The position numbers and the translations under genes are program-made. Below are positions 1 through 25,842 of a stretch of 64,000 bases of DNA, piece after piece. A model generated the notes under the pieces. That model ran no database searches and was not told the DNA's origin. It saw nothing but the letters and a program-made list of their open reading frames with translations. Source of the stretch: Thermococcus eurythermalis. Lineage in GTDB: Archaea > Methanobacteriota_B > Thermococci > Thermococcales > Thermococcaceae. The stretch lies in the NCBI RefSeq assembly GCF_000769655.1, contig NZ_CP008887.1, positions 1,860,001 through 1,924,000 on the forward strand, given 5' to 3'. Within the stretch, counting starts at the first letter, position 1, and each line of letters begins with the position of its first letter.

Positions 1-297
1 CGCTTTGGTGAGTATGCCGTCGTAAAGCCGACCGTAAAGGTCTTCCTGACGCTCAAGGGCTGGCTCACCGAGAATGGTCTAACGGAAGACTGGCACAGAA
101 TCCTTGGCTCATTTGTCGGCTACCTCGTGACTATGTTGCCCATTATAGTAGAGCACGAGGACAAGGAAACAGCCCTCTCCTATACGAAGCTTGTAGAAAG
201 CCTCGTTGAGGAAGCCTCTGAAAAGTTCAACAATGAATACTACGACGAGCTACTCACTCGGGTTCGGGAGTTCAGAAAGAAGATAGAAGAAGACTAA
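1..297 (+). CDS. C-terminal part of an unrecognised protein
   Basis: An open frame runs from the first base of the window to a TAA at 295-297, giving 98 residues without a start, so the gene begins outside the window. The fragment is mixed alpha-helical, rich in Glu, Lys and Tyr, and ends in a charged helix (RVREFRKKIEED). I recognise no domain. The stop overlaps by a few bases the stop of the convergent QueD-like gene. Confidence 0.6.
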   Translation, partial: RFGEYAVVKPTVKVFLTLKGWLTENGLTEDWHRILGSFVGYLVTMLPIIVEHEDKETALSYTKLVESLVEEASEKFNNEYYDELLTRVREFRKKIEED

Positions 298-749
298 CGC
301 TCAAGAACCACCTGGGCATAGCTCCTTGGGTCTTCCCACACTTTGACGAGGATTTTTTTCACGTTGTCCCCTGCCTTTTCTGCTATCCTTTCAGCAAACC
401 ACTCGGCTATGTACTCAGCCGTGACGTTGGGCTTGTTTAGGACTACAACTTCCTCCCCAGGGAGCTCAAGCCGTTTGCCGTTCTTTTCGACGACCACTCT
501 TCCCCCTCTTTTCTCTACAACCCAGTCCTCGCTTACGAGAATCCTGTGGTCAAGGAGTTTTATGAGCTTGCTGAGGTGGTTGAAGTCGAATATCATACCG
601 TTCTCGTTGATGTCGCCCCATATCTCCACGTCAACGTTGTAGGTGTGGCCATGTATGCGGAGGCACTTGCTGTCGTAGGGAAGGGCGAGGAAGTGCGAAC
701 TGTCGAAGTCCTTGTGCCAGCCTATCTTTCTCTCCACGACCCTGAACAT
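294..749 (-). CDS. 6-pyruvoyl-tetrahydropterin synthase / QueD family protein
   Basis: This 151-aa protein has the size and motifs of the PTPS/QueD fold. The zinc ligands are an early His (SSHF, near residue 19) and the HGH motif near residue 34, with the catalytic-type Cys four residues before it (KCLRIHGH). A C-terminal VWEDP segment supplies the pterin-anchoring Glu. Members convert 7,8-dihydroneopterin triphosphate to 6-carboxytetrahydropterin (archaeosine/queuosine route) or to pyruvoyl or hydroxymethyl pterins. The Cys argues against the PTPS-III variant, in which Glu replaces it. The start ATG at 749 has a GGTGAA ribosome site. MptA at 56.9-57.7 kb makes the upstream pterin. The exact substrate is inferred, not shown. 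Confidence 0.85.
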   Translation of the reverse strand: MFRVVERKIGWHKDFDSSHFLALPYDSKCLRIHGHTYNVDVEIWGDINENGMIFDFNHLSKLIKLLDHRILVSEDWVVEKRGGRVVVEKNGKRLELPGEEVVVLNKPNVTAEYIAEWFAERIAEKAGDNVKKILVKVWEDPRSYAQVVLER

Positions 750-21539: not shown

Positions 21540-24332
21540 ATGCCAACCATGCACACCCTCCTCAAGAAGGTCATCAAAGAGCGCTTTGGAAGGCTCAACA
21601 GGCTCCAGCAAGACGCTTTTAGAGAGGTTAGCTCCGGAAAGAGCGTTTTGATTATCGCCCCAACTGGTTCTGGAAAGACAGAAGCGGCAGTCCTGCCGGT
21701 TTTCAACGAGATACTCGAGGAGGGGCTCAAACCTATCTCGGCGCTCTACATAGCTCCCCTCAAGGCCCTCAACAGGGATCTGCTTGAGAGGCTCGAATGG
21801 TGGGGAAAGAAGCTAGGGATAACGGTCGAGGTCAGACACGGTGACACTTCGGCATACAAAAAGGCGAGGCAGACGAGGAACCCGCCCCAGATGCTAATAA
21901 TCACCCCTGAAACTCTTGGCGTCATTCTGACCGTTAAATCACTCAGAAAGCACCTTGAAAACGTGAAGTTCGTCATCGTGGACGAGATAGCCGAGCTTGT
22001 GGACAACAAGCGCGGGGCGCAGCTCCTCCTCAACCTTGAGAGGCTGGCCGAGATAGCCGACTTCAGAAGGATAGGTATGACTGCAACGGTGGGCAACGAG
22101 GACGAGGTGAGAGAGTGGCTGAAGGCGGACGTCATAGTCAGGCCGAGCTGGAAGAAGAGCTACCGCTTCCACGTGCTATATCCAAAGCCTACTGAAAAGG
22201 CCATGGGGCTGGCCGAGAAACTGAGCCTCTCGCCAGAGATAGCGGCGAGGCTTAGACTTTTGTGGGAGATAGTCGAGGAGCACGGAAAGGCCCTCATATT
22301 CACCAACACGCGCCAGTTCGCGGAGATTTTGGCGCACCGCCTCAAGGCCTGGGGAAAGCCTGTTGAGGTTCACCACGGCTCGCTTTCGAGGGAGGCGCGC
22401 GTTAAGGCGGAGAGGGCGCTGAAGGAGGGTAAAATCAGGGCGCTGATATGCACCTCTTCAATGGAGCTGGGAATAGACATCGGCGACGTGGACGTCGTAA
22501 TCCAGTACATGAGCCCGAGGCAGGTCAACAGGCTCGTCCAGCGCGTCGGGAGGGCGAAGCACAGGATTGGCGAGGTCAGCGAGGGCTACATCATAACCTC
22601 CAACGTCGAGGACTACCTTCAGAGCCTTGTCATAGCTAAGCACGCCCTCGAAGGCCGCTTTGAGGCGGTCGAGCCGATGGGAGGGCTGGACGTTCTGGCC
22701 CACTTTGTTGTCGGCCTGCTCATAGAGTACAAAAAGCTTCCACGCGAGAGGCCCTATGAGATAGCAAGGAGGGCGTACGTTTACAGGGACTTGAGCTGGA
22801 GCGACTACCTCGACGTTCTCCGCGTTTTGGAGGACGCTCACTTGGTCGGCTACGACGAGGAGAGCGGCCTGCTCTACCTGAGGCGCAGGGCATTCCAGTA
22901 CTACTACGAAAACCTCTCGACGATTCCCGATGAGGTCTCATGGAGGGTCTTTGACGCGAAGAGCGGGCACATCATAGGCAGACTGGACGAGAGCTTTGTG
23001 ATGGATCTGGAGGAGGGTATGGAGTTCGTAATGAACGGGCGGAGCTGGATTGTGCTCAAGATAGACGGTGAGGCGAGGCTTCTGAAGGTGCGCGAGAGCA
23101 GGAGCCTTGAGAGCGCGATACCGAGCTGGGAGGGTGAGATGATTCCCGTCCCGTTCAGAGTTGCCCTTGACGTCGGCAGACTGAAGAGGGAGCTTGCCTT
23201 CGACTTTGAGAAAGCGAAGGATCTCCTGAAAGGGGTCGAGTTCAAAGAGGAGGAACTTAGAAGGGCCTTCGAAGAAATCAAGGACGAACCCTTCTCCACC
23301 GACCGCGATATAGTCGTCGAGAGCACGCCGAAGGCTACGATAATCCACGCTGACTTCGGGAACAGGGCGAACGAGGCCCTTGGCCAGCTGGTTCACTCCC
23401 TTCTAATCATGAGATATGGGAGAGTCTTCTCAGTCCGCTCCCAGGCCCACGCGATAGTCTTCAAGACACCATTCCAGCTAAACCCTGAGGAGGTGAAGGG
23501 CTACCTCTACCAGGAGCCAGAGAGTCTGGAGTTCATAGTTTCCCGCGCCATAAGAGACTCCCACGCCTACCGCTGGAGGATGATGAACGTAGCAAAGCGC
23601 TTCGGCGCGCTGAGACGGGACGCGAAAATAAGGAGGATTGAAAGGCTCTTCGAGGGCACGGTGATTGAGAAAGAAACACTCAACGAGCTCTACCACGACA
23701 AGGTCAACGTGAGGAAGGGTGAGCTCCTGCTTGAAATGCTTAAGCGGGGCACCCTTAGGGTGAAGACCGAGCTGAGGGGAGAGCCATCAACGCTGGCTAA
23801 GCTTAACATGAGCGTCGGAGGGGAGTTCCTGCTCTCCGGCGTCCTTGAGAGGGACGAGATACTTGAGCTGTTTAAGAAGAGGCTCCTCGACCACGAGGTC
23901 GTTTTAGTCTGCACCAACTGTGGCTGGAACTCGAAGACGAAGGTCTCACGCCTGGAGGAGAGAATTAAGTACTGGGAGTGCCCGCGCTGCGGTTCGAGAA
24001 TGCTGGCTGTTGCCCACCCGATCGACGCGGAGGAGTTTCTCCCGGTTCTGGAGAAAGTTCGCCATGGAAAACCGTTAGATAAGAAAGAGGAGAGGGTTTA
24101 CAGGAAGCTCCTGAAGGCGGCAGATCTTATAGACTCATACGGCTTCGACGCCGTCCTCGCCCTGGCGAGCTATGGGACTGGCCCAGACACTGCGGCAAGG
24201 ATTCTGGGACAGTATAAGGGTGATGCCCTCATCGTAGCCCTGATGGAGCGCGAGAGGCAGTTCATACGGACGAGGCGGTTCTGGGTGGACAGGAAGGAGG
24301 AGAAAGAAAAGGAAGACAAGTCTACCCACTGA
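21540..24332 (+). CDS. lhr: Lhr-type ATP-dependent helicase
   Basis: This 930-aa SF2 helicase has Walker A APTGSGKTEAA near residue 40, motif Ib PETLGV, motif III TATV, VHHGSLSRE, STSSMELGIDIG-like motif V and QRVGRAKHR motif VI. Winged-helix and Lhr-core domains follow, and a four-Cys zinc ribbon ends the chain (CTNCGWNS...CPRCGS). Lhr proteins unwind or anneal RNA:DNA and forked substrates in repair and RNA metabolism. Motif II reads DEIAEL rather than the common DEVH/DEIH. There is no ribosome site; ttttata at 21521-21527 puts the transcription start near ATG 21549, so leaderless initiation at the second ATG is possible. Confidence 0.9.
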   Translation: MPTMHTLLKKVIKERFGRLNRLQQDAFREVSSGKSVLIIAPTGSGKTEAAVLPVFNEILEEGLKPISALYIAPLKALNRDLLERLEWWGKKLGITVEVRHGDTSAYKKARQTRNPPQMLIITPETLGVILTVKSLRKHLENVKFVIVDEIAELVDNKRGAQLLLNLERLAEIADFRRIGMTATVGNEDEVREWLKADVIVRPSWKKSYRFHVLYPKPTEKAMGLAEKLSLSPEIAARLRLLWEIVEEHGKALIFTNTRQFAEILAHRLKAWGKPVEVHHGSLSREARVKAERALKEGKIRALICTSSMELGIDIGDVDVVIQYMSPRQVNRLVQRVGRAKHRIGEVSEGYIITSNVEDYLQSLVIAKHALEGRFEAVEPMGGLDVLAHFVVGLLIEYKKLPRERPYEIARRAYVYRDLSWSDYLDVLRVLEDAHLVGYDEESGLLYLRRRAFQYYYENLSTIPDEVSWRVFDAKSGHIIGRLDESFVMDLEEGMEFVMNGRSWIVLKIDGEARLLKVRESRSLESAIPSWEGEMIPVPFRVALDVGRLKRELAFDFEKAKDLLKGVEFKEEELRRAFEEIKDEPFSTDRDIVVESTPKATIIHADFGNRANEALGQLVHSLLIMRYGRVFSVRSQAHAIVFKTPFQLNPEEVKGYLYQEPESLEFIVSRAIRDSHAYRWRMMNVAKRFGALRRDAKIRRIERLFEGTVIEKETLNELYHDKVNVRKGELLLEMLKRGTLRVKTELRGEPSTLAKLNMSVGGEFLLSGVLERDEILELFKKRLLDHEVVLVCTNCGWNSKTKVSRLEERIKYWECPRCGSRMLAVAHPIDAEEFLPVLEKVRHGKPLDKKEERVYRKLLKAADLIDSYGFDAVLALASYGTGPDTAARILGQYKGDALIVALMERERQFIRTRRFWVDRKEEKEKEDKSTH

Positions 24333-24712
24333 CCTCCTCCCCGCCTTAGCTGAGGGTTCCAACGGATTACCCCCCGCCAACGACGGGGAGGTTTGCGGGT
24401 TCATTACCTACTCGTGTTGCCACTTTCGGTTCAGCCCGCGGGCCGGGTCTCCGGCCCAGCGGTTCGGGGTTATCGCTCAAAGGTCACCCTCCAGAGTTTT
24501 CAACCGCTCGAAGGCGGTTCTTGAAAAGGACGCTTAACAGCGCCAACCCTCCAACGCTGGAAGGTAACGTGAAACCCCTTTGAGAGAGGTTGTTTTACAG
24601 TGGCCTCTTCGAGGCCCTTATTAAACGGGAAATTATTTACTGGTTTCGGTCTAAAAGAGCCAAACCCTCAATTACTGCATCCCCGCCCTAAAGGGCGAGG
24701 CTTTCAAAAGAA
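24333..24712 (-). mobile_element. tnpB-less IS200/IS605-family remnant (MITE-like) with structured RNA
   Basis: The 420-bp gap after lhr holds both ends of an IS605-type element without transposase genes. The left-end hairpin (gccc-taaa-gggc, 24685-24696, within the typical thermococcal ccccgccc...gggcgagg context) and the right-end hairpin region with ccccgcc...acggggagg and cctccccgcc (24336-24388) lie on the minus strand. Between them are strong hairpins: ggcctc-ttc-gaggcc (24602-24616), aaccgc/gcggtt (24502-24519) and gggccgg-gtct-ccggccc (24440-24457). These resemble the 3' part of tnpB plus its reRNA/omega-RNA. The element abuts the lhr stop codon. Assignment to the family is from remembered end sequences, not a search. 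Confidence 0.6.
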
Positions 24713-24755
24713 AAATGTAACTAGCGGGCCCAGACTAAAAGCGAAAAGGAAAGGC

Positions 24756-25811
24756 TCACGCCCCTTTTCCATAAATCTCGTTGAGGGCCTTCAGGAACTC
24801 GCTGGCAGTTACTACATCCCTCACGTCAATGCGCTCGAACTTTGTGTGCGAGATGTCGAGGTTGCCGGGGCCGAACACTATCGTCCTCGTCCCGTTGTAC
24901 ATGAAGTTTATAGCGTCTGTCCAGCTCCTCATTCCGCCGAACTCGTCAAGGCCCGTCCTTTCCATGGCCTGTTTGGCCATCTGGACGATTTCCTCATCGG
25001 GTTCAAGGCGGTAGCCGTCCCATATCTCGGTGTACTCGTAGCTCTTGGTGTACTCGTCGAGTATTGGGTCCATTATATCGAGGACGTCCTCGACCTCCTG
25101 CTCAGGCAGAAGCCTCGCCTCAAGTCTCCCCCTGCAGAGGGCGGGGATTAGGTAGACGGGGTTCTCACAGACGAGCTCCTGAATTCCTATGTGCGGGTCA
25201 AAGAACTCTCCCTTGGCCTTGAAAGGTTCGAGGTTCTTTAGCTTTTCAAGCATCTTGTAGGTCTCTTCAATCGCGTTAACTCCGCTCTCCGGACAGGCAC
25301 CGTGGGCCTCCTTACCGTCCACCTCAAAGTATGCCTCGATGTTGCCGGCGTGGGCTATGTGCACTTCCAGGTCGGTCGGCTCAAGGACAACCGCCATCTT
25401 GGGCTTGTAGCGCTCCATGAAGAGGGCGCTTCCCCTGCCACCCTGCTCCTCGTCGCTGACGAAAACGATGCCGACGTTGAGGTCTTTGCCCTCCTTGCGG
25501 AGGTTCTCAAGCATGAGGAGTATCGCGGCGGCACCGCCCTTTATGTCGCTCGCACCGGTTCCGTAGACGATGTTGCCCCTAACGAAGGGCTCGGCCCTGA
25601 TGGGTATCGTGTCCACGTGCACCTCGTAGAAGAGCTCGGCATTGGGGTTCACGACGAGGTCTATTATCTCGCCGTCGCTCTCTATCGTGACGTCGTAGTC
25701 GAGCCTGTGCAGGAACTCCATGATGTGGAGCATTATCCTGTCTTCCTTTCCTGAGGGGGAGGGTATCTTCAAAAGCTGAAGGAGTATCTCCTTCGCTCTC
25801 TCGGTCTTCAT
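24756..25811 (-). CDS. M20-family deacylase (ArgE/DapE/LysK-like)
   Basis: The 351-aa metallo-enzyme shows all M20 metal ligands: His-Asp in FYEVHVDTIP, bridging Asp in GTGASDIKGG, the catalytic Glu pair in VSDEEQGG, Glu in VVLEPTDLEV and a late His in DISHTKFERID. Such enzymes remove acyl or amino-acid groups from nitrogen (acetylornithine, LysW-lysine, succinyl-diaminopimelate). The substrate cannot be told from sequence, and no arginine or lysine genes are nearby. The start is ATG 25811, after TAGGTGACCC; a GTG at 25820 is inside the site. A palindromic tttataaa at 25843-25850 fits its promoter. Confidence 0.85.
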   Translation of the reverse strand: MKTERAKEILLQLLKIPSPSGKEDRIMLHIMEFLHRLDYDVTIESDGEIIDLVVNPNAELFYEVHVDTIPIRAEPFVRGNIVYGTGASDIKGGAAAILLMLENLRKEGKDLNVGIVFVSDEEQGGRGSALFMERYKPKMAVVLEPTDLEVHIAHAGNIEAYFEVDGKEAHGACPESGVNAIEETYKMLEKLKNLEPFKAKGEFFDPHIGIQELVCENPVYLIPALCRGRLEARLLPEQEVEDVLDIMDPILDEYTKSYEYTEIWDGYRLEPDEEIVQMAKQAMERTGLDEFGGMRSWTDAINFMYNGTRTIVFGPGNLDISHTKFERIDVRDVVTASEFLKALNEIYGKGA

Positions 25812-25842
25812 TTGGGTCACCTAATAGGCTTTTAGGGGAGGA

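Follow-up and report, generated by a model that had tools for sequence, protein, structure and literature searches.

What is the DNA between the lhr-type helicase gene of Thermococcus eurythermalis and the gene at 24756-25820 (minus strand), which from its sequence looks like an M20-type peptidase, and can a transposon-like stretch without protein genes have a function of its own? The window analysed is a stretch of 64,000 nucleotides (G000:C1:1860001-1924000; the genome, G000, has 2,126,164 bases in two contigs). The stretch in question is a degraded member of a protein-less IS200/IS605 family of the Thermococcaceae. Throughout the family, this IS605-type element joins a new 5' RNA domain to a part that resembles the omegaRNA of TnpB. 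The features of the locus are as follows.

21540-24332, plus strand: lhr-type helicase gene, whose stop TGA (24330-24332) is now supplied by the element.
24309-24328, minus strand: predicted guide, in the flank into the lhr end, by analogy with reRNA as described in PMC8612924; its length is assumed.
24329-24716, minus strand: whole element, 388 bp, with left end at 24716 and right end at 24329.
24329-24476, minus strand: 3' RNA domain of omegaRNA/HgcC-like type, which takes in the right-end hairpin; in this copy it is damaged and ~20 nt short.
24474-24623, minus strand: 5' RNA domain, a long-range helix closing several hairpins; scores well with model R1 (124 bits) and is backed by pair counts.
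24633-24648, minus strand: promoter-like BRE/TATA block, CGAAACCAGTAAATAA in the window; consensus cGAAAcccTTTTAAa (column counts, 80 copies).
24681-24700, minus strand: left-end hairpin (inverted repeat I13), presumed to be bound by TnpA; tnpB elements have it too.
24717-24720, minus strand: TTAC target and presumed TAM, adjoining the left end.

The boundaries of the element follow from its flanks: once joined, they reproduce the unoccupied site in L189, the closest relative, whose Lhr C-terminus is the most similar (93%); both limits are also common to other copies. Flanking matches are ~55 bases apart in L189 versus 436 in the window (alignment coordinates). With 24329-24716 removed, the window flanks read ...ACC CAG TAA CTAG..., and L189 reads ...CAC CAG TAA CTGG.... 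As the joined flanks match L189, the element was placed 3' of TTAC (minus strand), turning the terminal Q-stop of lhr into H-stop and leaving the gene intact elsewhere. Among 60 family copies with a readable left-end motif (regular expression; 98 copies examined), 36 have TTAC in front of the left end, and the right-end tip TCAG, with which the window element also ends, is found in 94/98. Several relatives (L189-L217) carry CCACCAGTTACTGGTGG, a palindrome with a central TTAC that is frequent at their lhr 3' end (window counterpart 24309-24332); given this inverted repeat near the insertion point, the TTAC target may once have been part of a palindrome resembling a terminator.

An inverted-repeat search located the arms of both end hairpins (24336-24356/24371-24391 and 24681-24689/24692-24700). 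A first-pass annotation, made from the letters alone, had described both of these, and its internal hairpins were also found: gggccgg/ccggccc within 24440-24457, ggcctc/gaggcc within 24601-24617 and aaccgc/gcggtt within 24501-24519. It was equally right that ORFs for tnpA and tnpB are both missing from the interval between lhr and the peptidase gene, and its assignment of the ends to the IS200/IS605 type is borne out by hairpins in common with the tnpB elements of G000. The subterminal hairpins are shared with autonomous elements, the target is short and fixed, insertion occurs 3' of it without duplication, and an empty site is known. The segment 24329-24716 is a non-autonomous IS200/IS605 element with a TTAC target.

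Searching the genome with 24250-24800 returned 50 places at E<=10, the window copy included, which is far more than chance would give. The description of the element as 'solo' proved wrong, as G000 holds seven further full-length copies (68-76% identity) as well as mini copies, and the family is large and repeated. The mini copies, ~49 bp each and 15 in number among the fetched G000 places (loci L047-L060 and L062), consist of the two tips, left and right, fused at the hairpin common to both (TTACATTTTTCTTTTGAAAGCCTCGCCCTTCAGGGCGGGGAGGAGGTCAG), and their stems covary (GCCCTTCAGGGC / GCCGTTCACGGC). Both ends are shared with at least six tnpB elements of the genome. Left and right ends are identical in kind across the window element, the tnpB elements and the IS605 with tnpA (L035, G000:C1:1847097-1848996), inside which lies the single Y1 TnpA match found in G000 (1847269-1847625). 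The tnpB genes run from the side equivalent to 24716 toward that equivalent to 24329. The direction of these related genes makes 24329 the right end and would point any guide into the end of lhr, in agreement with the orientation proposed earlier.

The idea of a TnpB acting in trans finds candidate partners in 13 TnpB matches in G000, 10 of which score 85-105 bits. A resident TnpB (P0001) falls in the NCBIfam family guided_TnpB at 190 bits (cut-off 100) and retains the GIDLG and NADLVGAFN motifs. Judged by the usual positions of the RuvC motifs in TnpB, it has G in place of the RuvC-II Glu, and for this reason the nuclease activity of the resident TnpB is not certain. The same replacement (IVVGYPK) is present in 6/6 aligned TnpB from G000 and relatives (alignment A3), and a Glu in EAFTS, further on and ahead of the zinc ribbon, is invariant in all six. 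An AlphaFold2 model of TnpB (mean pLDDT 57.3, pTM 0.43) was not good enough for a judgement on the RuvC site.

The interior of the element is a conserved structured RNA of ~320 nt, located behind an archaeal-type promoter block that lies ~22-25 nt upstream of the presumed RNA start. We extracted 98 copies, dropped 6 as duplicates or truncated, and reduced the remaining 92 to 80 non-redundant rows at 92% identity. The consensus of the 5' domain comprises ~140 nt and five helices, with a 10-bp long-range helix (arms ~120 nt apart) enclosing four hairpins. That of the 3' domain consists of several helices, the last being the right-end hairpin. Alignments A1 (5' domain) and A2 (3' domain) retained 74/80 and 68/80 rows respectively, the rows left out being short or divergent. 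The shuffle tests are lenient owing to relatedness and gene conversion: for the 5' domain, 91.0% of cells were paired with a covariation of 0.247 vs 0.162 shuffled, neither value being reached in any of 500 shuffles, and 34/500 shuffles attained two of the five measures (changes on both sides of a pair, further pair types). For the 3' domain, the corresponding values were 95.6% and 0.243 vs 0.117, with 0/500 shuffles reaching any of the five measures. When the partners were shifted by one to three columns, a control that retains relatedness, pairing fell to 34-55%. Because omission of short or divergent rows favours the structure, both pair counts were redone with all 80 rows, giving 89.8% (5' domain) and 95.7% (3' domain) paired cells. 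Respectively 157 and 141 cells were changed on both sides, vs at most 92 and 55 in any of 200 shuffles. The two halves of the window RNA each have a better fold than 200/200 dinucleotide shuffles (z -5.2 and -4.0), and the lone intact 5' domain of copy L067 folds nearly to the consensus form on its own. RNAalifold predicted few pairs for the two alignments (17 and 25), for which gap columns are the probable reason; our structure is the consensus from the 80 rows, which was tested separately.

The proposal of an omegaRNA-like 3' part was confirmed by the last ~150 nt, which are colinear, strand-specifically, with the 3' end of tnpB together with the right end, i.e. the omegaRNA/HgcC region. As for an omegaRNA or reRNA, this right-end region matches a tnpB 3' end and the guide would lie beyond the end. 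According to Karvelis et al. (PMC8612924), reRNA derives from the right end plus ~16 nt of flank; this source cites the T. kodakarensis transcriptome paper for earlier sightings of such RNAs. Guides differ from site to site among the copies, as in ordinary reRNA, and no other TTAC-flanked site in the genome lies within 3 mismatches of the predicted window guide. The five loci scanned with Rfam HgcC (RF00062) included the tnpB elements L036 (47 bits) and L035 (43 bits), copies L073 (38.2) and L144 (36.6), and copy L067, for which there was no HgcC match at E<=0.01. The window copy scores 22.8 bits (E 0.01). All of these, the tnpB elements included, miss the HgcC gathering score of 50 bits. Among 94 Thermococcaceae genomes, 75 have an HgcC match at E<=0.001 and 21 pass the cut-off. 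As HgcC matches occur at the right ends of G000 tnpB elements, this Rfam family seems to consist, in part at least, of TnpB omegaRNA/reRNA. No HEARO match (Rfam) was obtained at E<=5 for window positions 23800-25200, or at E<=0.01 for the five loci.

The 5' domain was not found in 27 tnpB- or HgcC-bearing loci outside the known copies, the best chance match having an E value of 0.24. The 5'-domain model gave 196 matches at E<=1e-4 in 50/94 Thermococcaceae genomes, covering 5/6 genera, and in a search of 115 genomes of the phylum at E<=0.001 it matched 51, with none outside the Thermococcaceae. Earlier counts of 8/41 and 63/94 genomes do not represent the element alone, as the queries included the 3' half common to tnpB elements; the 5'-domain count is cleaner. 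A degenerate-pattern search of genome contigs retrieved 10 stretches, all from MAGs of Thermococcus, Thermococcaceae, Thermococcales or Thermococci, and copy L067 had no match in plasmid and phage collections. A TnpB match is present in 48/50 genomes with the 5' domain vs 32/44 without (p=0.0026), and Y1 TnpA in 22/50 vs 3/44 (p=4e-5), in tests that ignore phylogeny. The two genomes that have the 5' domain and no TnpB match, G073 and G050, are 86% and 77% complete; in six more the best TnpB match is weak. No TnpB-less element of this kind in Thermococcales was found in titles and abstract openings of a literature collection with few subscription journals, nor in the searched passages of PMC12558985 (circular omegaRNAs in archaea), PMC10711439 and PMC6640164 (P. 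furiosus).

Compared with the family consensus, the window copy is damaged. It lacks the ~20 nt in which the first omegaRNA helix has its 3' strand, its 3' domain forms 16/26 pairs (the lowest of the 80 rows) and is thus no intact scaffold, and its TATA box is unusual vs the family consensus. Its omegaRNA head being broken and its TATA box altered, this copy probably has no active RNA, though both ends are kept. The earlier suggestion of a dead MITE may hold for the RNA of the window copy, given these two defects; it does not hold for the family.

As the element contains no protein gene, it probably borrows enzymes from related transposons. We favour a model, with a probability of about 65% on the sequence comparisons at hand, in which the element is an RNA-only passenger that TnpA moves and whose RNA would guide TnpB in trans to the vacated site. 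The Y1 TnpA of the resident IS605 would excise and insert the element. Its RNA, composed of the 5' domain and the omegaRNA-like 3' domain, would take its guide from the flank just past the right end. The resident TnpB would then bind this RNA in trans and cut the vacated TTAC-plus-guide site after excision, and repair of the cut from the sister chromosome could restore the element.

The DNA ends might instead be all that matters, the interior hairpins being DNA structures or leftovers of a plain MITE. Both end hairpins are required for transposition in the IS200/IS605 family, the 15 minis are numerous without any interior, the window copy is itself damaged, and gene conversion can keep copies alike without selection. 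We nevertheless regard this as quite unlikely: the ~300-nt interior has compensating changes over 80 copies, including those in a helix with arms ~120 nt apart, a promoter-like block is present, and the colinearity with the tnpB omegaRNA region is strand-specific. Simple internal deletion of a tnpB element would account for the left end, promoter region and last ~150 nt, all of which match tnpB elements. It would leave unexplained a 5' domain that is the same across the family and occurs in none of the 27 loci mentioned above, as well as a mid 3' domain unlike the tnpB coding end. We consider such an origin highly improbable and reject it in its bare form, as the conserved 5' RNA domain was not found in any of those loci.

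The RNA could also act without any cutting, as a decoy or regulator that binds TnpB or another protein to block it, to control tnpB/tnpA, or to serve a host that has adopted it. An extra 5' domain atop an omegaRNA-like part would suit such a role, TnpB co-occurrence is equally expected for a decoy, and the orphan RNA HgcC4 of T. kodakarensis (PMC4247193) has no known target. We think this unlikely, as the right end beside the guide is kept (the TCAG tip noted above), guides vary by site as they do in reRNA, and few sites are common to species, unlike a host gene.

Shared insertion sites were limited to 6 pairs among the 97 copies compared between species. The element is more divergent than its flanks in three of these pairs, less so in two, and one shows no clear difference. 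In L135/L147, L151/L154 and L074/L101, the elements are ~9% different and the flanks 0-2.5%. For L135/L147, the differences begin inside the element and do not go past its right end; the stretch of L147 that differs is closest to copy L136. Misassembly is possible at L147 and L074, where assemblies are fragmented; the assemblies of L151 and L154 consist of nine contigs and one contig. Gene conversion between copies seems real. Concerted change was considered as the sole cause of the structure and rejected, since conversion by itself makes no compensating base changes. The RNA-only passenger could be taken further, into a selfish element whose 5' domain is a new module that captures or competes for TnpB, and whose sequence is spread from copy to copy by gene conversion at TnpB-made breaks, with tracts stopping at the element edge. 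We advance this version tentatively and judge the odds to be somewhat against it.

Several known systems resemble the element in part. IS608-type members of the IS200/IS605 family share with it the terminal hairpins, a TTAC target, the lack of target duplication and an autonomous partner in the genome, and its TCAG tip resembles the TCAA of IS608. Non-autonomous derivatives of this type differ in that the interior of the present element, instead of a gutted transposase gene, holds a conserved RNA gene. HEARO/IscB omegaRNA loci that stand alone are similar as RNA-only transposon copies that would depend on a trans-acting RNA-guided nuclease; the present element has TnpB-type and not IscB-type ends and lacks the HEARO match. 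TnpB omegaRNA/reRNA and HgcC (RF00062) are alike in the last ~150 nt and in a guide that would start directly past the end. The element is set apart from them by the lack of tnpB in cis, its own promoter-like block, the ~140-nt 5' domain and sub-cut-off scores; tnpB homology occurs in 1/98 copy loci, and there outside the element. If the favoured reading is true, a TnpB guide RNA can persist as a mobile gene in its own right, with no protein gene but with a promoter of its own and an additional RNA domain. This would be an instance in nature of a guide RNA parting from its nuclease, which is a step also required toward CRISPR.

The same reading, if true, would explain what the hitherto puzzling orphan HgcC RNAs of Thermococcales are, and T. 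kodakarensis, being genetically tractable, allows it to be tested directly. The T. kodakarensis transcriptome study (PMC4247193) lists five HgcC RNAs: three lie within transposase genes, and HgcC4 and HgcC5 lie outside them, the 5' part of the hypothetical gene TK1679 encoding HgcC4 (dRNA-seq). Copy L144 of genome G011 has its HgcC match at 461-608 (minus strand), i.e. in the first 148 nt of an ORF at 171-608 (minus strand), with a degenerate 5' domain (L144:639-762, 49.8 bits) directly upstream. On the published description, HgcC4 is probably this copy. It is alike in being an expressed HgcC RNA without a transposase gene, and its degenerate 5' domain is unlike that of intact copies. Locus L176 fits the host gene described for HgcC5 in the same study, a membrane metalloprotease.
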